NCBI GenBank assembly: GCA_020186115.1
Contig: WSYJ01000180.1
Coordinates: 62,001 to 126,000 of the forward strand
DNA: 64,000 nucleotides
Reading direction: 5' to 3'
Source: Histomonas meleagridis
Taxonomy: Eukaryota > Parabasalia > Tritrichomonadida > Dientamoebidae
In this document: in pieces, positions 4,601 through 52,399 of the stretch
How the letters are laid out: the number at the start of each line of letters is the position of its first letter
Position numbering within the stretch: the first letter of the stretch is position 1
Position numbers and translations under genes: made by a program
The notes under the pieces: model-generated
Database searches by the model: none
What the model was told of the DNA's origin: nothing
Seen by the model: only the letters and a program-made list of their open reading frames with translations

Positions 4601-4761
4601 ACTGGAGCATCAACTTCAAATGTATGATTCTTTTCCCAGTTTTCATGAACTTCCTTTTCAATTGGAGCAAGAGTAGCAACACGTGCTTTCAATACTTCAT
4701 CATTTGCAAATGATGTTATGTTAACTTTCTGCTGTTCTGCAGCCTTTCCTTTTGCAGGCAT
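1609..4761 (-). CDS. LARS: Cytosolic leucyl-tRNA synthetase, 1050 aa
   Basis: Class I aminoacyl-tRNA synthetase charging tRNA-Leu. The HIGH box reads HLGH (in 'NGRIHLGHLYSFSK', about 80 residues in) and the KMSKS loop is exact ('NAKMSKSTGNF', about residue 705). Between them lies the large CP1 editing insertion typical of archaeal/eukaryotic LeuRS, including 'LRPETMVGQTNYW'. Full length is about 1050 residues, normal for the cytosolic enzyme. The frame stays open 23 codons upstream but only from a TTG at 4830; the first ATG is at 4761, giving MPAKGKAAEQQ, which I take as the start. Transcribed away from the SNU23-like gene across a spacer of about 150 bp that must hold both promoters. Single-copy-type gene with no frame damage. 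Confidence 0.95.
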   Translation of the reverse strand: MPAKGKAAEQQKVNITSFANDEVLKARVATLAPIEKEVHENWEKNHTFEVDAPVEPVDHSKKFFVTFPFPYMNGRIHLGHLYSFSKCEFAVRYNRMKGKYSLLPFGFHCTGMPIKASADKLALEIDNGIIVTGTTGRGSKASAKAEQGVSQFDILRHMGVPEEEIPEFRDPIKWLKYFPPLGMEDLKAYGSAVDWRRSFITTEFNPYFDHFVTWQFRILKRLGLVTFGKRPTICSIKDQQPCMDHDRASGEGVQPQEYTLIKLQLVDPKHIDERFGDYPVFLLAATLRPETMVGQTNYWIKPGVKYEVARSKDGKELYVCGARSLRNLAAQELVESFDPLFEIESDKFLLAECTHNTIDHKIKGLPLPGIKMNKGTGIVTCVPSDAPADYKGIIDLQKNAELRKKYNINLEDVADIKPILIITTKKYGDCTAKAVLDELKDVKMPMEEKLEEAKQRAYKEGFYHGTMILGPFKGQKVTEAKEKAKLKMVEENAALTYYEPEKEVISRSGDECVVMNCDQWYMEYGREDWKKKLTDYFDKVNVFHDEIREKFKSTFEWLGPHACSRQFGLGTHMPFAPEFLIDSLSDSTIYPAYYTIAHLLQGCITGAIPGIAKLTPDKINDEFFNCVFLNGPLPEGIPEETMKVFRREFEFWYPCDVRASGKDLVQNHLTMYLYNHIAIFPEDKWPLGIRVNGHVKLNNAKMSKSTGNFLTAVEAINMFSVTGVRIGLADASDGSDEANFDGTVVKSALLRLQSFTELVKNPPENMHEGIQGFADELFDARISKAIIEANKAYEKMMFKAALKSSFFELQNFWTEYCGMSETSISSTLRQRYIETFLLLLTPIIPEYTDYIWTHVLQKKSDIVNEKFPEPNPFKPDLFYMERLLRKTADVIKFRVRALRKAKGLNSATIFIRTKFNEIQLHVLSILRKHFNEEENKFNEEELNKEISEDQKLNEIKKSSKNGAQQFMPFLQFYRASVPEFGAFLLQDTPDVDQKELFLSNKNWFLRQLPGYKSLDVINVDEPFEAPGLDQKIALQAQVYMPTADLCSKPN

Positions 4762-6210: not shown

Positions 6211-6683
6211 TCAATTAACATAATTGTATACAATTTTTTTATTTTTGTTGTCATTTACTTCTATATTTAGAAATTCACATATTTCAGCAAAACCATGTTT
6301 AGCTGCAATAATATGTGCTTCAAATAAATTAATTAATTTCCAAAAACTTTTAAAAAACATCAAAATTTTAAGAAAAATATCAAATAAAACAAATATATAT
6401 CTTTGGCATTAATATCAATTCCTTCCTGTTCAAGAAGTATTTTAACTATTTTTGTATTATTATTCCAAGATGCTATAATAAATGCTGTCATAAATAAATT
6501 CCAAATATTATTTTGAAACATCAAATTATTAAAATAAATTATATTTTTAGCATTAATATCAATTCCTTTTTGTTCAAGAAGTAATTTAACAATTTCTATA
6601 TAACCTTTTGAAGTTTCAAGAATAAGTGCTGTATTAAATATATTCCTATCTGATTCATTAGGTCCAATAAGGTAAAATATCAT
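6211..6683 (-). pseudogene. 3' end of an ankyrin-repeat gene (three modules)
   Basis: Reading on the minus strand, two modules of the type 'TALI..(S/A)..G(Y)xEIVK(L/I)LLEQ-GIDINAK' are followed by a terminal half-repeat ('AHIIAAKHGFAEICEF') and a TGA at 6211-6213. The first two modules are joined by an open 57-nt spacer encoding 'NIWNLFMT'. The second and third are separated by a longer AT-rich spacer with an in-frame stop. The spacer matches those of the large locus at 48405-52399, including the TTTCAAAATAATATTTGGAAT box. There is no N-terminal domain: upstream of 6683 the frame simply opens, so this is a detached 3' fragment, or the tail of a gene whose front is elsewhere. Confidence 0.65.
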
Positions 6684-16102: not shown

Positions 16103-19100
16103 ATGTTGTTGTTGTTCGGAGTTCTTTTCATCCTGCAACAAAATGTTTCTTCAGATGAAAAAACGCCTTACCCATTAAATAAAACTTCTACTCAACAAAA
16201 CGATAACCAAAATGTTTTTGATAAAAAGAAAATAATTTCAACTGTGGAAAAAGAGAATAATGGAAATGCTAGTGTAAATGTAGTCAACAATAGTGAAATA
16301 CACAATTCAACAGAAACAATTAATAATCAAAAAATGCAAGAAATTGAAGGAAATACAACTGAAATAAAGAAAGAAAATATGACGGAAATAGACGGAGAAA
16401 GTAAAAGTCAATTACCTGAAAGAAAAAGGATTCGAACCATCACAGATTTAACAACAGAAGATATAATTGAATTAAACAAAGAAAACACAACGGAAGTAGA
16501 TGGAGAAAGCACAAATCAATTAGATAAAAGAAATGAAAAAAATGATGCAACAGAGTTAACCAAAGAAAACGAAACAGAAGTAAGTAAAGAAAATACAATA
16601 AATATAACCAAAGAAAATGAAACAGAAGTAAGTAAAGAAAATACAATAAACATAACCAAAGAAAATGAAACAGAAGTAAGTAAAGAAAATACAATAAACA
16701 TAACCAAAGAAAACGAAACAGAAGTAAGTAAAGAAAGCAAAAGGAAAACAGTAAAGAACAACAAGAAACGCACACCAACAAATACAACCAAAGAAAACGA
16801 AACAGAAGTAAGTAAAGAAAATACAATAAATATAACCAAAGAAAACGCCACAGAAGTAAACAAAGAAAATGAAACAGAAGTAAATCAAGGAAATAAAGGT
16901 AAGCAAAGTGAAGAAGATAAAGAAACTGAGAATAAAAAAGGTAAAGCAAAAGATAACAATGAAGATAAAGAAAAGGAACAAAAAGATAAAGATGATAAGA
17001 AACAAAAAGATAAAAAAGATAAAGGAAATGAACAAATAGATAAAGACAAGAAACAAAAAGATAAAGATGATAAGGAAAATGAACAAAAAGATAAAGATAA
17101 GGAACAAAAAGATAATGAAGAAGAAGATAAAGGAAATGAACAAATAGATAAAGACAAGAAACAAAAAGATAATGAAGAAGAAGATAAAGAAAATGAACAA
17201 AAAGATAAAGACAAGAAACAAAAAGATAAAGACAAGAAACAAAAAGATAAAGATGATAAGGAAAATGAACAAAAAGATAAAGATGATAAGGAAAATGAAC
17301 AAAAAGATAATGAAGAAGAAGATAAAGACAAGAAACAAAAAGATAAAGATGATAAGGAAAATGAACAAAAAGATAATGAAGAAGAAGATAAAGGAAATGA
17401 ACAAATAGATAAAGACAAGAAACAAAAAGATAATGAAGAAGAAGATAAAGAAAATGAACAAAAAGATAAAGACAAGAAACAAAAAGATAAAGACAAGAAA
17501 CAAAAAGATAAGGAAAATGAACAAAAAGATAAAGATGATAAGGAAAATGAACAAAAAGATAAAGATAAGAAACAAAAAGATAATGAAGAAGAAGACAAGA
17601 AAAATGATAAAAAAGATAAAGGCAAAGAAAGTGAAGAAGATAAAGGAAATGAACAAAAAGACAAAGAAGATAAAGAGAATAAAGATAAGAAACAAAAAGA
17701 ACAGAAAGATAAAGAAGATAAAGAAAATGAACAAAAAGATAATGAAGAAGAAGATAAAGAAGATAAGAGACAAAAGGATAAAAAAGATAAAGATGATAAG
17801 GAAAATGAACAAAAAGATAAAGACAAGAAACAAAAAGATGAAGAAGATAAAGAGAATAAAGATAAGGAAAAGAAAGATAAAGAAGATAAAGGAAATGAAC
17901 AAAAAGATAAAGACAAGAAACAAAAAGATGAAGAAGATAAAGAGAATAAAGATAAGGAAAAGAAAGATAAAGAAGATAAAGGAAATGAACAAAAAGATAA
18001 AGACAAGAAACAAAAAGATGAAGAAGATAAAGAGAATAAAGATAAGGAACAGAAAGAACAGAAAGATAAAGAAGATAAAGGAAATGAACAAAAAGATAAA
18101 GACAAGAAACAAAAAGATGAAGAAGATAAAGAGAATAAAGATAAGGAAAAGAAAGATAAAGAAGATAAAGGAAATGAACAAAAAGATAAAGACAAGAAAC
18201 AAAAAGATGAAGAAGATAAAGAGAATAAAGATAAGGAACAGAAAGAACAGAAAGATAAAGAAGATGAAGAGAATAAAGATAAGAAACAAAAAGATAAAGA
18301 AGATGAAGAGAATAAAGATAAGGAACAGAAAGAACAGAAAGATAAAGAAGATAAAGATAAGGAACAGAAAGACAAAGAAGATAAGGAAAATGAACAAATA
18401 GATAAAGATAAGGAACAGAAAGAGCAGAAAGATAAAACAGATGAAGAGAATAAAGATAAGAAACAAAAAGATAAAGAAGATGAAGAGAATAAAGATAAGG
18501 AACAGAAAGAACAGAAAGATAAAGAAGATAAAGATAAGGAACAGAAAGACAAAGAAGATAAGGAAAATGAACAAATAGATAAAGATAAGGAACAGAAAGA
18601 GCAGAAAGATAAAACAGATGAAGAGAATAAAGATAAGAAACAAAAAGATGAAGAAGATAAAGAGAATAAAGATAAGGAACAGAAAGAGCAGAAAGATAAA
18701 ACAGATGAAGAGAATAAAGATAAGAAACAAAAAGATAAAGAAGATGAAGAGAATAAAGATAAGGAACAGAAAGAACAGAAAGATAAAGAAGATAAAGATA
18801 AGGAACAGAAAGACAAAGAAGATAAGGAAAATGAACAAATAGATAAAGATAAGGAACAGAAAGAGCAGAAAGATAAAACAGATGAAGAGAATAAAGATAA
18901 GGAACAGAAAGAACAGAAAGAACAGAAAGATAAAGAAGATAAAGTTAAGGAACAGAAAGACAAAGAAGATAAGGAAAATGAACAAATAGATAAAGATAAG
19001 GAACAGAAAGAGCAGAAAGATAAAACAGATGAAGAGAATAAAGATAAGGAACAGAAAGAACAGAAAGATAAAGAAGATAAAGATAAGGAACAGAAAGACA

Positions 19101-19777
19101 AAGAAGATAAGGAAAATGAACAAATAGATAAAGATAAGGAACAGAAAGAGCAGAAAGATAAAACAGATGAAGAGAATAAAGATAAGGAACAGAAAGAACA
19201 GAAAGAACAGAAAGATAAAGAAGATAAAGTTAAGGAACAGAAAGACAAAGAAGATAAGGAAAATGAACAAATAGATAAAGATAAGGAAAAAAAAGAGCAG
19301 AAAGATAAAACAGATGAAGAGAATAAAGATAAGGAACAGAAAGAACAGAAAGACAAAGAAGATAAGGAAAATGAACAAATAGATAAAGATAAGGAACAGA
19401 AAGAGCAGAAAGATAAAGAAGGTGAAGATAATAAAGACAAAGAACAGGATCAAATCAACAAGAAGCAAAAAGAAAATGATGCAGAGGACAAAGAAAAAAC
19501 GCAAAAAGACAAAGAAAGTGATGAAGATGACGACGATGACGACGATGACGAAGACGACAAAGAAAAGGACGACGACAAGGAGACGGCCACGCTAAACTAT
19601 GGCAGGTACGGCAAAAGCGAGCAAAACGACAACTTGAAGTCAACGATGTTCGGAGTCGGCGTAATTGGCTTTGTGCTTGTTGCGGTGGTTATATACACTG
19701 TGTATAGGATTAAGACCCGAAGAGCTAAAAACACCGATTCCGACGAGCCGCTCCTTGTAACTGATGAATTTTACTAA
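16103..19777 (+). CDS. Giant low-complexity type I surface protein, 1224 aa
   Basis: Residues 1-17 form a signal peptide (MLLLFGVLFILQQNVSS). Residues about 140-260 hold a repeat of about 16 residues, 'TKENETEVSKENTINI', with several N-x-T glycosylation sites. From about 270 to 1130 nearly every residue is K, D, E, Q or N in nested repeats such as KEDKENEQ and DKEQKEQKDK, with larger duplicated blocks of about 20, 28 and 60 residues. An acidic D/E run leads to one transmembrane helix (about 1177-1196) and a short tail ending 'DEPLLVTDEFY', a possible tyrosine sorting signal. The last 200 nt are clearly GC-richer than the repeat region. Family and ligand are unknown. The repeats keep the frame open for 3.7 kb, which argues for selection on the protein. 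A 982-codon antisense frame is only a by-product of the repeat composition. Confidence 0.85.
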   Translation: MLLLFGVLFILQQNVSSDEKTPYPLNKTSTQQNDNQNVFDKKKIISTVEKENNGNASVNVVNNSEIHNSTETINNQKMQEIEGNTTEIKKENMTEIDGESKSQLPERKRIRTITDLTTEDIIELNKENTTEVDGESTNQLDKRNEKNDATELTKENETEVSKENTINITKENETEVSKENTINITKENETEVSKENTINITKENETEVSKESKRKTVKNNKKRTPTNTTKENETEVSKENTINITKENATEVNKENETEVNQGNKGKQSEEDKETENKKGKAKDNNEDKEKEQKDKDDKKQKDKKDKGNEQIDKDKKQKDKDDKENEQKDKDKEQKDNEEEDKGNEQIDKDKKQKDNEEEDKENEQKDKDKKQKDKDKKQKDKDDKENEQKDKDDKENEQKDNEEEDKDKKQKDKDDKENEQKDNEEEDKGNEQIDKDKKQKDNEEEDKENEQKDKDKKQKDKDKKQKDKENEQKDKDDKENEQKDKDKKQKDNEEEDKKNDKKDKGKESEEDKGNEQKDKEDKENKDKKQKEQKDKEDKENEQKDNEEEDKEDKRQKDKKDKDDKENEQKDKDKKQKDEEDKENKDKEKKDKEDKGNEQKDKDKKQKDEEDKENKDKEKKDKEDKGNEQKDKDKKQKDEEDKENKDKEQKEQKDKEDKGNEQKDKDKKQKDEEDKENKDKEKKDKEDKGNEQKDKDKKQKDEEDKENKDKEQKEQKDKEDEENKDKKQKDKEDEENKDKEQKEQKDKEDKDKEQKDKEDKENEQIDKDKEQKEQKDKTDEENKDKKQKDKEDEENKDKEQKEQKDKEDKDKEQKDKEDKENEQIDKDKEQKEQKDKTDEENKDKKQKDEEDKENKDKEQKEQKDKTDEENKDKKQKDKEDEENKDKEQKEQKDKEDKDKEQKDKEDKENEQIDKDKEQKEQKDKTDEENKDKEQKEQKEQKDKEDKVKEQKDKEDKENEQIDKDKEQKEQKDKTDEENKDKEQKEQKDKEDKDKEQKDKEDKENEQIDKDKEQKEQKDKTDEENKDKEQKEQKEQKDKEDKVKEQKDKEDKENEQIDKDKEKKEQKDKTDEENKDKEQKEQKDKEDKENEQIDKDKEQKEQKDKEGEDNKDKEQDQINKKQKENDAEDKEKTQKDKESDEDDDDDDDDEDDKEKDDDKETATLNYGRYGKSEQNDNLKSTMFGVGVIGFVLVAVVIYTVYRIKTRRAKNTDSDEPLLVTDEFY

Positions 19778-36655: not shown

Positions 36656-37126
36656 ACTAAATTTATATTGTCATTATATATTCAATCAAAGTTATTAAAA
36701 TTGGCAACACATTGACAAGGCTCAGAAACAAATTCTTCATCGATGATAATGCAATAAATAATTTGAATAAGTTTTAGTAACTTTTTAAATCGAATTAACC
36801 AATTCATGCCATTGTCATAATTAAAGATAATTCAAAGATGATTTTTCTATATAATTTGAACAACGATCAAAGTTAATAAACTTTTTGAACAAAATTTATT
36901 GAAGTAAATTTTTCAAGATTTGTATCAAATACTTTCTCTGTTAAGTCGAGAAAAGTACTCTGAAGTTTTTCATGTACTGTGACATGAATTAATAAAAACA
37001 TAATATTCATTAAGTAAAATTTGAAAAATATAAACAAAGTTGATTTAATTTAGAAAATTTTGTTATATTTTGTTATATTTATTTTTCTTGAAAATGAAAC
37101 ATACATTTTGAAACATTTAAAATTCG
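36656..37126. other. Gene-free spacer, about 470 bp
   Basis: AT-rich DNA upstream of the surface glycoprotein gene. I see no ORF or repeat beyond a short duplicated TTTTGTTATA at about 37058-37080. Confidence 0.5.
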
Positions 37127-37540
37127 GTTTATTTGCGTTCTGTATTCAATTTGATTATCTCTACATAACCTGATTTAGTTAATTTAAGTGCATTGTAAGC
37201 GCAGATTTAAATAGTTTAAACAATTTCAAATAACATTCAAAGACATAAAAATGCATAAATAAAACCAAAATAAAATATAGAAATATTTTTAGCATTAATA
37301 TCTATTCCTTTATGTACAAGAAGTAATTTAATTACCGTTTTCATATACACAAATAAGTGCTGTGTATCATAATTTAAATAAATTCCAGATATATCTATAA
37401 CCTTTTTGAGTTGCTTCAATAAGTACTATATTAAATAATTTGAATAATTATAAAGTATGATTATGAAACAAAAAATTATTAATTTTATATGAAATATCTT
37501 TAGCATTAATGTCAATTCCTTCTTGTTTTAAATTAGCCGT
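37127..37540 (-). pseudogene. Ankyrin-array remnant, broken on its 5' side
   Basis: Minus-strand pieces of the same ankyrin family as 48-52 kb: a fragment 'GYVEIIKLN' at about 37140-37190, a damaged module with 'VIKLLLVHKGIDINAKN' at about 37280-37345, and the tail of another ('EGIDINAKDIS') at about 37490-37535. The AT-rich spacer boxes are also partly kept. The similarity stops abruptly at about 37540, inside a module ('TTCTTGTTTT' then unrelated less AT-rich DNA), marking a rearrangement breakpoint. Unlike the large locus, modules here are internally damaged. Confidence 0.6.
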
Positions 37541-48404: not shown

Positions 48405-51184
48405 TTATGTTATATATTTTTTTAATAAACTAACAACGTCTGGATGACCACATTGAGATGCATAAGTAAATGCTGTTCTATATAATTCAAATGCATTCCA
48501 AATATAATTTTGAAACACTATTTAATTAATAAAAACAAAAAATTTATTAAATCTGCATCTGTAACATTAACATCGATTTCAGGATGTTCAACAAGTAAGC
48601 TAATTACACCTAAATAACCTTGTTTTGCTGCGTACATAAGTGCTGTTTCGAATTATTTAAAAAAATTCCAAATTTAATTTATAAATAAAAAAAGTATAAA
48701 TTAAACTAAAAATAAAACAAATTAACATTTTTAGCATTTACATTAATATCCTTATGTTCAAGAAGCATTTTAACAATTTGCGTATGACCTCTTATTGATG
48801 CTAACATTAGTGCTGTTTCGGGTAATTTATAGAAATATCAAAAATTATTATAATACATTAAACTATAAAAATGAACATCAACAAAAATTGTAAAATATTT
48901 TTAGCATTAATTTTAATATTTTCTGTATTAAGAAGTAATTGAACTATTACTGTATAACCGCATAAAGATGCTATCATAAGTGTTGTGAAAAATAATTTAA
49001 GTAAATTCCAAATATTATTTTAAAATTTCAAATTATCAAAATAAATTTCTTATAAAATGAATAAAAATTTTTTATATTAACATCAATTCCTTCTTTTCCT
49101 AAAAGTAATTTAACTATTTCAATATAACCTTTTTCAGCTGCTATTATAAGTGCTGTATTAAATGATCAAAATAATTTTCGAATAGTCATTTGAAATTCTT
49201 TATTATTAAAATAAATATTAAATAAAACAAATAAATATCTTTAGCATTAATATCAATATCTTCTTGTTCAAGAAGTAATTTAACTATTTCTGTATAACCA
49301 TTTTGAGATGCGATAATAAGCGCTGTTACAAACAAATGGAAAAATTACTAAATATCATTGTGAAACATGATAAAATCATAAAAACAAACCAAAAATAAAA
49401 CAAATAAATAGTTTTTGCATTTACATCAATTCCTTCTTGTTCAAGAAGTAAACTCACGATTTCAGTTAAACCTTTTTCAACTGCTAATATAAGTGCAGTA
49501 CTAAATAATTTAAATATTTCCCATACAATTTAATGAAATATTATATTTTTATAAGAAACATCAAATAAAATAAATATATCGATTTAGTATTAATATTAAT
49601 TTTCTTATTTTGAAGAAGTAACTTTAATAAATCAATTTGATTTTTTTCTGCTGCAATCATAAAAATTGTTTTTTATATTCGAAGGAAATTCCAATTATTC
49701 TTTTTAAACATCATTTCGAAATATAAATATTTAACATTTTTAATATTAATATTTAATTTCTTTTGTTCCAGAAGAAAGCTTACTATATCATAATGACCAT
49801 TTGATGCTGCTGAGATAAGTGGTGTTTCATATTATATGAAATAATTCCAAATATTTAATTTAAATAAAAATTTGATTAATTAAACGTCAAATAATATTTA
49901 TGAATATTTTGATTATTTATATTAATTTTTTCATTTTCCATAAGAAACTTTATAAGTTCTAATGAACCTCCTTTAGATGCATAAATAAACGCAGTCGTAA
50001 AATCATTAATGAAATACCAAATATTTATATGTAACATTATTTAATTTAAACAAACACAAAATATATAAAATAATTATCTTTAGCATTAATATTCTTACAT
50101 CCTTTCACTAGAAGTAATTTAACAATATCCAAATTTCCATTTTCACACGCCATCATTAAAGCATTTTTAAATATATTTAATATATTTTATATATTATTTT
50201 GAAATTGCAAATTATATTATGAATCTTTAAATAAAATAAATATATGTTCATAATGTTTATATCAATGTTTTCTTGATTAAGAAGTAATTTTACATTATTA
50301 ATTTTATTTTTCATACATCCTTTCATTAATGCTGTTATAATATTTTGATAGTAACTCCAAAAATTTTTGTTATAACAAATTTTAAAAGTAAACATTAACA
50401 AATATCAAAGAACATACTTAAAATTGATATTAATTCCTTCTTGTTCAAGAAGAAGTTCAACAATTTCAGTGGAATCTTTACCACATGAATATATAAGTAA
50501 ATTTTTAATAAATTATAAGTAACGCCAAATATTGATATGAAAAATTAAATAAATTTGTTGAACATATTTTGCATTTGGATTAATATGAAACTTATCAAAA
50601 AGTATCTTAAGAATTTCCACATTTCCTTTAGAGCATATGATTAAAGGTAACAAATGAAATTTAGATAAACATTAAAATATAAATAGAAACAAATTCTTTG
50701 TAAAAGAAATGCTTTTAATGTTAATATCGATTTTTTCATGATTAAGTAATAATTTAACGATATCAAAATGATCATTTTTAGCTGCATATATTAATGCAGA
50801 ATAAAATCATCAAAACTAAAACCATAAATTATATTTAAATATCAAATTAGTAGAATAAACTTTATATTAGAATAATAAAAAGTTTCGCAATTTATATCAA
50901 TATCATTTTGTTCAAGAAGGAATTTAACAATATCTATATACCCATATTGTGATGCAATAATAAGTCCATTAAAAAATATTTATATTAAATTCCAAATATT
51001 ATTTACAATTATCAAATTATTCGAATAATTTTTAAATAAAATAAATAAATTGATGCAGCATTTATATCAACACCATTTTCAACAAGAAATTTTACTATCG
51101 ATGTGTAATTATTCTCAGAAGCCAAAATGAGTGAAGTTGTAAACAAATTAAATCAATTCCAAATTTTATTTAAAAATATCAAAA
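48405..51184 (-). other. Array of 17 open ankyrin modules separated by stop-containing conserved spacers (candidate intron-dense 3' part of the ankyrin gene)
   Basis: Minus-strand modules, each about 27-29 codons of the type 'TALI.AS..G(Y/H).EIVK.LLEQ..IDINAK', lie at about 51053-51140, 50884-50971, 50713-50800, 50568-50655, 50420-50505, 50249-50336, 50079-50166, 49909-49995, 49739-49826, 49583-49669, 49413-49499, 49240-49326, 49070-49156, 48900-48986, 48730-48816, 48561-48646 and 48405-48476. None contains a stop or frameshift. The last ends naturally ('VVSLLKKYIT', TAA at 48405). Between them are spacers of about 75-95 nt that all contain an in-frame stop and share ATATTTATTTGTTTTATTT near the start and TTTCAAAATAATATTTGGAAT near the middle. 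A normal ankyrin repeat needs only about four more residues between modules, so the spacers sit where nothing should be. No consistent GT-AG ends; one spacer starts with GTATGT (50422 side). Introns, silent cassettes or selective decay are all possible. Confidence 0.7.
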
Positions 51185-52399
51185 TTATAAAACAAACTTT
51201 AAACATATAGAATTTATTTCTTTTGCATTTAAATCGACATTTTTTTGCTCTAAAACATAATTTACAACATCAATATTTCCAGATTTCAGAGCAAAAATTA
51301 AAATTTCATTCGGTAATTTATATTTTAAATGGAAATGTTTTAAAAGGAAAATATTTCCAATATTTGCAGATTCATTTATAATATAATTTGGAATTTTAAC
51401 ATTTTTCTTCTCTAAGAATGATAAAATCTCATAATTATCATAAGTTATACATTCACTTACCAAATTCGTTAAATTTTCCAATCGATTTTCATAAAGGAAA
51501 GTAAAGATATCATTTTGATGGAATTCAATTGCTGCATTAAGCGAACCAGAAAACGATGAATTGTTTTGTCTACAAAAACGAAATATTTCAAGATTTCCAC
51601 CTGCAACAGCATATTTTCCATTACATGTAAAATTAGGATCATTCATTTGTAAGAATTTGAAACAATTTATAGAGCCGAAAAATGCAGCATAATCACCTAA
51701 TGTCGGAAGATGTTTATCATCTGTAATAAAAGAACATCTTTCATATATAGAAGGTTCAATAATTTGATTAAAGTTAAACTTTTCTCGTGATGTAATTTCT
51801 TGAAGTTTTTCTACATCATTATTTCGAATAGCTGTTAATACTTCTGATGGATTAACTCCATTATGAACTAACTCTTTTTGAAGTTTCCAATTATCTTCTT
51901 GAAGATTATTTCGATCGTGAAAAAATAATCTACATAATTTATATTCACGGAAACTCAATTCTTTATAAGAAGTGCGAAGTTCTTCTTGAGTCATTCGATG
52001 TGCAAAATATGGTGATGATAAATATAATTTAGAACTAATTAATTCTTTTTCTATCAGCTTTTCAATAAGATAATATGTTTCTTGTATTTTAAACTTGAGA
52101 ATACATAGATAAAAAACAGAAAAAATATTTATTTTTGTTTTGTTTTTGGAGTTAATTTTTTCTTCTATAGTTTTTAAAAATTGAAAATATATGTCTTCTT
52201 CTTTTTTTCGTGAGATAAATGATGTAAATACCATATGACATATGATAATAATAAAAGATTGTTGTAATTCAAAATCAATCAAATTCATTGTCGATTGGAT
52301 AGATTCTTCCATATTTTCTGCACTTAGCTTTATAATTATATTTTGTAATTTTTGTAATAAGTTTAAATTAAATTCGTTAATGCTTTGTTGGCCATCCAT
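51185..52399 (-). CDS. DUF3447/ankyrin protein, N-terminal part, 404 aa as read
   Basis: ATG at 52399. The first 200 residues are helical, of the kind that begins trichomonad DUF3447 proteins. Residues about 200-290 fit DUF3447 ('LPTLGDYAAFFGSINCFKFLQMNDPNFTCNGKYAVAGGNLEIFRFC'). Ankyrin repeats follow ('LNAAIEFHQNDIFTFLYEN', 'ILIFALKSGNIDVVNYVLEQKNVDLNAK'). The frame then runs 10 codons into the first conserved spacer and stops at TAA 51185. If spacers are removed, the protein would continue through 17 more repeats to 48405 and reach roughly 950 residues, a common size for this family. If not, this is a short form ending inside an ankyrin repeat. The family's role is unknown; it is greatly expanded in trichomonads. 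Confidence 0.75.
   Translation of the reverse strand: MDGQQSINEFNLNLLQKLQNIIIKLSAENMEESIQSTMNLIDFELQQSFIIIICHMVFTSFISRKKEEDIYFQFLKTIEEKINSKNKTKINIFSVFYLCILKFKIQETYYLIEKLIEKELISSKLYLSSPYFAHRMTQEELRTSYKELSFREYKLCRLFFHDRNNLQEDNWKLQKELVHNGVNPSEVLTAIRNNDVEKLQEITSREKFNFNQIIEPSIYERCSFITDDKHLPTLGDYAAFFGSINCFKFLQMNDPNFTCNGKYAVAGGNLEIFRFCRQNNSSFSGSLNAAIEFHQNDIFTFLYENRLENLTNLVSECITYDNYEILSFLEKKNVKIPNYIINESANIGNIFLLKHFHLKYKLPNEILIFALKSGNIDVVNYVLEQKNVDLNAKEINSICLKFVL

Follow-up and report, generated by a model that had tools for sequence, protein, structure and literature searches.

Seventeen-nucleotide elements that isolate single codons within the ankyrin repeats of a candidate gene family of Histomonas meleagridis

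Layout of the gene

The gene described here lies on the minus strand at 48405..52399 of a 64,000-nucleotide window of the Histomonas meleagridis genome (contig WSYJ01000180.1; C114:62001-126000, in a genome of 43,276,120 bases and 121 contigs). The term window denotes this whole stretch, and all positions below refer to it. The gene comprises a 394-codon exon with a match to DUF3447, followed by 17 ankyrin modules and 17 spacers. The spacers consist largely of short AT-rich elements, about 65 in the gene by a parse of its letters, which appear to leave single codons standing between them.

Exon 1 (51218..52399) encodes the N-terminal domain with DUF3447 and the first ankyrin repeats, and ends in ...DLNAKE. 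Its open reading frame (51185-52399) continues beyond the exon into the first element and is closed by a stop at 51185, within the first spacer. An earlier reading made from the sequence alone (hereafter the sequence-only reading) had described the modules downstream of exon 1 as open and naturally terminated; all 17 (51137-48405) are indeed open, with lengths that are multiples of three, and the last ends in ...LLKKYIT with its stop at 48405. That reading had also placed an in-frame stop in every spacer. In the frame of the preceding module this holds inside 16 of the 17; the exception (49409-49327, 83 nucleotides (nt)) is open throughout, and a TAA straddles its junction to the next module. 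Within the repeat the spacers always fall at the same place, between NAK[D/N] and TAL, as had been claimed.

From exon 1 onwards, modules 1 to 5 occupy 51051..51137, 50881..50970, 50711..50800, 50564..50650 (29 codons) and 50414..50503; modules 6 to 11 occupy 50246..50335, 50076..50165, 49906..49995, 49736..49825, 49580..49669 and 49410..49499; modules 12 to 16 occupy 49237..49326, 49067..49156, 48897..48986, 48727..48816 and 48557..48646; and the last module occupies 48405..48476. Twelve spacers are 80 nt long, and nine of these carry a glycine codon: spacer 1 (51138..51217, where glycine is the third of four codons), 2 (50971..51050), 3 (50801..50880), 8 (49996..50075), 9 (49826..49905), 11 (49500..49579), 14 (48987..49066), 16 (48647..48726) and 17 (48477..48556). 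The 80-nt spacers 7 (50166..50245), 13 (49157..49236) and 15 (48817..48896) lack it. The other five depart from this length. Spacers 4 (50651..50710, without glycine) and 5 (50504..50563, with glycine) are 60 nt, each with three elements and three codons; spacer 6 (50336..50413, 78 nt) falls 2 nt below the 17-nt rule described below and is the worst parse in the gene; spacer 10 (49670..49735, 66 nt) has three elements and five codons, the second element being absent; and spacer 12 (49327..49409), the open one, has four elements and five codons without glycine.

Geometry of the spacers

The arrangement was surveyed in 20 genome stretches with interrupted arrays and 20 with long ankyrin frames. 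These provided 238 gaps shorter than 200 nt between adjacent modules, gaps of 200 nt or more being left out. Gap lengths are quantised, with 87 gaps of 80 nt, 40 of 60, 35 of 63, 14 of 12, 11 of 81, seven of 100 and six of 83 nt, and the remaining lengths occur one to three times each. A spacer consists of three or four AT-rich 17-nt elements, each followed by one codon, so that 80 nt equals four elements plus four codons and 63 nt equals three elements plus four codons (12 + 17n). Element-free repeats of the same genome have a 12-nt linker of four codons (14 of the 16 gaps of at most 15 nt). In every 80-nt spacer the elements lie at offsets 0-16, 20-36, 40-56 and 60-76 and the codons at 17, 37, 57 and 77; spacers of the 63-nt class lack the first element but retain its codon.

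In class I, the triplets between the elements spell the ankyrin loop x-x-G-x ahead of TAL. Glycine stands at the third linker codon in 52 of 66 class-I 80-nt spacers, the other three codons varying widely, and at the ankyrin position in 29 of 33 class-I 63-nt spacers. The same four-codon xxGx linker is found in the element-free repeats, but not in class H, whose modules start with TALH and whose spacers come in multiples of 20 nt (17 + 3). The H-class arrays (e.g., L001, L007, L015 and L020) have spacers of 40 to 180 nt, with tandem growth of 17 + 3 units and hypervariable triplets. Minor 18-nt elements also seem to exist beside those of 17 nt.

The element parse bars stops in codons and favours 17 nt and is therefore a description rather than evidence; it also took in gaps from L026 and L040, two element-free genes that give poor parses. 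Likewise, the regular expression that gives 28 intact linkers requires glycine and is silent on the rate at which glycine is retained. Element boundaries shifted by -1, +1 or 3 nt were considered and set aside, as each such shift would cost the glycine codon, remove the explanation for stop avoidance or leave near-constant Phe or Ile/Val codons.

This geometry bears on two accounts of the spacers. The four triplets of an 80-nt spacer lie in phases 2, 1, 0 and 2 of the unprocessed sequence, and thus an uninterrupted reading cannot take all of them as codons. Translation of the spacers as low-complexity inserts could be imagined for some of them, given that 16 of 31 unique 63-nt spacers are open in frame. 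However, in the frame of the preceding module stops occur in 64 of 84 unique spacers of 80 nt and in 35 of 36 unique spacers of 60 nt, a length of 80 nt changes the frame, and stop avoidance in triplets of three phases (described below) finds no explanation in this way; judged by the sequence, plain translation counts as refuted for the majority of 80- and 60-nt spacers and is very improbable overall. The sequence-only reading had proposed one intron per spacer, which would likewise rejoin the modules, but codons conserved inside the spacers (the glycines, and the absence of stops) are not expected within a single intron, and this form of the proposal appears most improbable.

Stop avoidance in the isolated triplets

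The isolated triplets were tested for stops by shuffling letters within class and offset in unique spacers (1000 permutations). The tests used spacers of 40, 60, 63, 80, 100, 120, 140, 160 and 180 nt, which make up 179 of the 238 gaps (167 unique); the remaining 59 gaps, of which 16 are element-free linkers, fall outside them, and the final test also drops groups of fewer than five. No stop was found in 599 linker triplets, where 38.6 were expected and the fewest in any permutation was 26. Since spacer copies are related, the set was then thinned: none of 361 triplets was a stop in spacers at least 10% apart (24.2 expected), none of 203 at 20% (12.0 expected) and none of 128 at 30% (7.7 expected; fewest in 1000 permutations, 2).

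At the other offsets taken together, stops occur about as often as expected: 447 against 451.3 in 70 class-I 80-nt spacers, 168 against 165.0 in 30 class-I 63-nt spacers and 220 against 223.0 in 29 class-H 60-nt spacers. In the 80-nt set, the offsets at which three or more stops would be expected all show some except 37 and 77, two of the linker triplets. Stops are likewise missing from the remaining linker offsets, 17 and 57 (2.5 and 0.8 expected), and from five non-linker offsets of this class with 1.3-2.7 expected. Pooling classes and offsets gave 0 of 699 (about 60 expected) or, once thinned, 0 of 190 (14.0 expected), but the mixing inflates the expectation and these figures are not relied on; the pooled register scan has deficits at other registers too (e.g., 5 against 43.0 expected at shift 4 and 25 against 99.6 at shift 6). 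The module search should not itself remove stop-bearing triplets at the linker places. To judge from their letters, the stranded triplets behave as translated codons.

These counts weigh on the suggestion that the arrays are dead or silent, either as pseudogenes or as donor cassettes, with codons that are relics of element-free ancestors. Dead copies should show stops in the retained codons at the chance rate, which was not found, and the deficit persists at a spacer divergence of 30% or more. Silent cassettes for gene conversion, which the sequence-only reading had entertained, are further disfavoured, as element-bearing donors would insert elements into their target and the stop avoidance of the triplets would be left unexplained.

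Selection and divergence

Codon-level constraint, as expected of protein-coding sequence, was found in class I. A comparison of ratios of nonsynonymous to synonymous divergence (dN/dS) had been suggested by the sequence-only reading, and between similar units the modules prove constrained, with dN/dS-like values for structural codons of 0.27-0.41 (80-nt units, 0.39 for near and 0.30 for far pairs; 63-nt units, 0.41; the window, 0.27). Other class-I codons have values from 0.77 to 1.17. The constraint on structural codons is a second argument against dead or silent arrays.

The linker codons are hypervariable. In 20 pairs of 80-nt units with elements about 3% apart, non-glycine linker codons differ in 75-85% of cases and glycine in 15%, and the differing linker codons are nonsynonymous in 50 cases and synonymous in one, a ratio that also speaks against relics. 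Among 25 pairs of 63-nt units, non-glycine linker codons differ in 40-68%. Linker divergence is near its plateau where elements are less than 3% apart (0.49 against 0.58). The hypervariable positions are those that are randomised in designed ankyrin binders.

The elements themselves diverge somewhat more slowly than third positions of the modules, at 0.335 against 0.381 in the window and 0.099 against 0.127 in near 80-nt pairs. Their ends are more conserved than their middles (0.258 against 0.424; bootstrap difference 0.117-0.203), and element length hardly changes despite sequence divergence. The proposal that exon and spacer were duplicated together was borne out in 58 class-I units with 80-nt spacers, in which element distance tracks third-position distance of the module (r 0.63; highest of 500 permutations, 0.37).

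Extent in the genome and relatives

The arrangement is genome-wide, as a search that the sequence-only reading had called for now establishes. A 28-nt core of the form element-GGA-element, with at most three mismatches, matches at 4,720 places in the genome against one for the backward pattern, and the H-class pattern at 613 against none. Within the window, tandem elements above 18 bits form 24 clusters on the minus strand and none on the plus strand, all belonging to this gene or to two ankyrin fragments; across the window and the fetched loci, elements were found only beside ankyrin modules.

This abundance is relevant to programmed DNA removal, whereby excision would yield an expressed element-free copy, similar to the internal eliminated sequences of ciliates. 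Short AT-rich elements with weak RTTT...TTT ends would suit such a system. However, thousands of unexcised copies stand in the same assembly, and parabasalids are not, to our knowledge, equipped with a somatic genome; we regard this explanation as very improbable.

All array loci but L018, 19 of 20, contain a match to the N-terminal exon, counted irrespective of order and strand, which is difficult to reconcile with dead arrays. About 100 matches to this exon were found across the genome, from a search in which just 99 of 8,255 candidates were scored. Of the 20 array loci, 10 have a stop shortly beyond the last module found, seven continue into another spacer and three do neither. The 10 loci without a tidy end favour dead or silent arrays, as do the little constraint in class H and the presence of decayed relatives in the window; in view of the stop avoidance and codon constraint, this explanation is nevertheless considered unlikely.

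The two fragments lie on the minus strand. At 36700-37531 a decayed-looking ankyrin fragment carries elements, with modules that are truncated and interrupted, in contrast to the gene at 48405-52399. At 6220-6640 about three ankyrin modules form an orphan run; its spacers bear elements, one of them shortened, and querying with exon 1 revealed no N-terminal exon at this place. Elsewhere in the window, a 1224-residue frame on the plus strand (16103-19777) shows an extreme purine skew, with a GC skew of 0.37-0.43 and an AT skew of 0.61-0.63 (2-kb windows), has long overlapping frames on the opposite strand, and gave no match in Pfam.

Protein searches returned just two annotated H. meleagridis members with this N-terminal domain (P0015 and P0019), both annotated as caskin, and exon 1 of the window gene was not itself among the matches of its own search. 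Fourteen of 16 exon 1 homologues come from short ENA contigs. The one of these compared with the genome, P0002, has at most 55% identity to the H. meleagridis genome among the matches listed, and is thus taken to come from another organism. Two of these proteins continue through the first spacer, with glycine at offset 57 (P0002) and 60 (P0010); the following module has its best fit, of those offsets tried, at 80 and 83, respectively, as the 17-nt rule predicts, while a few other offsets admit one to three module motifs.

Other DUF3447-ankyrin proteins of trichomonads share the N-terminal domain, the ankyrin repeat and the linker, but their linkers are uninterrupted, unlike the element-split ones here. 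This is the case in the Tritrichomonas foetus homologue TRFO_20532 (P0024) and in the H. meleagridis paralogues L026 and L040. These sequences suggest a gain of the elements that probably post-dates the separation from Tritrichomonas. Searches of viral and prokaryote collections with three queries found no related locus.

Element sequence and splicing machinery

Element ends were examined in 142 elements; these came from 36 class-I spacers, selected from 101 unique ones to differ by at least 25%. The ends are degenerate, of the form RTTT...TTT. All four consensus 17-mers fold at 0 kcal/mol, with no stable fold joining the ends, and the 6 of the 17 window spacers that were folded behave about like shuffled sequence (z -1.87 to 0.43).

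Components of a spliceosome are present in the genome. Prp8 is represented by a 2333-residue open frame with an RRM_4 match (E 2.7e-42), U2 exceeds the cut-off at two places, and U6 falls marginally under it (43.7 against 44 bits) with an ACAGAGA box. The U1 search gave no match anywhere and is uninformative about U1. The sequence-only reading had noted that the spacers are unlike known trichomonad introns, and the genome-wide search agrees: the strict pattern GTAYGT ... CTAACACACAG, taken in part from that reading, has no match in 43.3 Mb, and the looser GTATGT...ACTAACNNAG has two against 16 in the backward control. The genome report describes a virulent strain with 43 Mb in 187 contigs, assembled from Nanopore reads polished with Illumina reads, and 573 introns at no more than one per gene (PMC8529796). 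The strict Trichomonas vaginalis-type pattern at zero and the loose one below its control contrast with these 573 annotated introns.

Comparison with known systems

Ribosomes might instead hop each element, the elements staying in the messenger RNA (mRNA). Parallels for hopping are the byps of Magnusiomyces mitochondria and T4 gene 60. Such translational skipping matches all coding tests as well as RNA removal does, and a strict length combined with weak constraint on sequence is what a fixed-size hop might produce. Against it speak the take-off codon, which equals the last element triplet in just 3 of 142 elements, the lack of an unusual fold in all six window spacers tried and the 18-nt elements that seem to exist. 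Furthermore, we know of no precedent for up to four hops one codon apart, nor of byps separated by single codons. Byps resemble the elements in being short insertions within coding sequence (PMC4592705), but nearly all elements here lack matched take-off and landing codons. An identity with byps was accordingly rejected, and skipping in general is rated as quite unlikely.

Euglenid nonconventional introns are far longer than 17 nt. They share with the elements a lack of conserved borders and a removal mechanism that is not known, but a stable structure joins both of their ends (PMC6221363, PMC4770533), and the 17-nt elements have no such fold; this identity was also rejected. T. vaginalis type B introns belong to the same phylum, are very short (23-25 nt) and have a T-rich interior (PMC12316389). 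However, only 24 are counted, their 5' motif is extended and their branch site and 3' motif are fused (PMC12316389), and the absence of the searched pattern from the H. meleagridis genome led this candidate to be discarded as well.

A precedent is offered by the tiny spliceosomal introns of Stentor coeruleus, which measure 15 nt (92.8%) or 16 nt (7.2%), with 8806 annotated (PMC9505925). Fixed tiny length, a minor class one nt longer, AU-richness and thousands of copies per genome are common to both. The Stentor introns are mostly GU-AG (PMC9505925), whereas the Histomonas elements lack GT-AG ends, are separated by one-codon exons and, in the loci examined, occur only beside ankyrin modules. 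Unlike U2-type spliceosomal introns, 0 of 142 elements have GT at the 5' end and AG at the 3' end.

Proposed mechanism

The absence of GT-AG ends, matched codons and a fold, together with the presence of Prp8, U2 and U6 and the Stentor precedent, ranks RNA removal first, with silent arrays or translational skipping next. The elements are, on balance, rather likely to be removed from RNA as tiny introns, a process that would rejoin a working gene. The gene would then be a working member of a large DUF3447-ankyrin family, in which AT-rich elements, 17 nt or sometimes 18 nt long, interrupt the beta-hairpin loop (D-x-x-G-x-T) of each downstream repeat at codon boundaries and leave single codons standing between them. 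Present in the DNA, the elements would be taken out of the RNA ahead of translation as phase-0 introns with degenerate RTTT...TTT ends, restoring the ordinary 34-residue ankyrin repeat. Single-codon exons would make sequential removal necessary if splicing acts, so the elements are probably removed one after another. The remover could be a spliceosome, either relaxed or dedicated, or else some different cut-and-join enzyme. The view of the sequence-only reading that modules are coding and interruptions are not read finds support in codon constraint and stop avoidance. Its equation of one spacer with one intron is at odds with the codons kept inside the spacers; the removed pieces would be of 17 nt.

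Transcription, removal at the RNA level, its sequential order and the machinery are inferred from the DNA. Several observations weigh against removal from RNA. GT-AG is absent from the element-end set, and TT takes the place of AG at the 3' end in 107 of its 142 elements. U6 has an ordinary ACAGAGA box and nothing in it explains the element sites. We know of no precedent for 3-nt exons between 17-nt introns, thousands of times over. Class H linkers vary in codon number and have no fixed glycine, and constraint in this class is unproven, its values of 0.53 for structural and 3.73 for other codons being based on few counts. Moreover, 40 of the 238 gaps are of 60 nt and hold three codons, and spacers of 71, 77, 78 and 81 nt break the rule. 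The glycine codon differs in 13 of the 25 pairs of 63-nt units (52%), two glycine-less units filling 14 partner slots. Finally, only 10 of the 20 array loci reach a stop soon after the last module found, and the ankyrin fragments elsewhere in the window look decayed.

Implications

Among the titles and abstract beginnings listed in literature searches, none described 17-nt inserts that isolate single ankyrin codons. It is conceivable, though we put it forward only tentatively, that these thousands of non-GT-AG elements belong to an undescribed removal system that isolates single codons at target-binding ankyrin positions. The elements may double as crossover points that shuffle binding-site codons, making the arrays a natural library generator of ankyrin binders.

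If removal from RNA is true, the H. meleagridis genome, annotated with no more than one intron per gene (PMC8529796), would contain introns by the thousand that rank with the shortest known. Introns without GT-AG ends and with one-codon exons would force a new view of intron definition. If ribosomes skip the elements instead, recoding would have an extreme representative in these arrays. In both cases, the annotation of this large and rapidly diversifying ankyrin family of the poultry parasite is poor.

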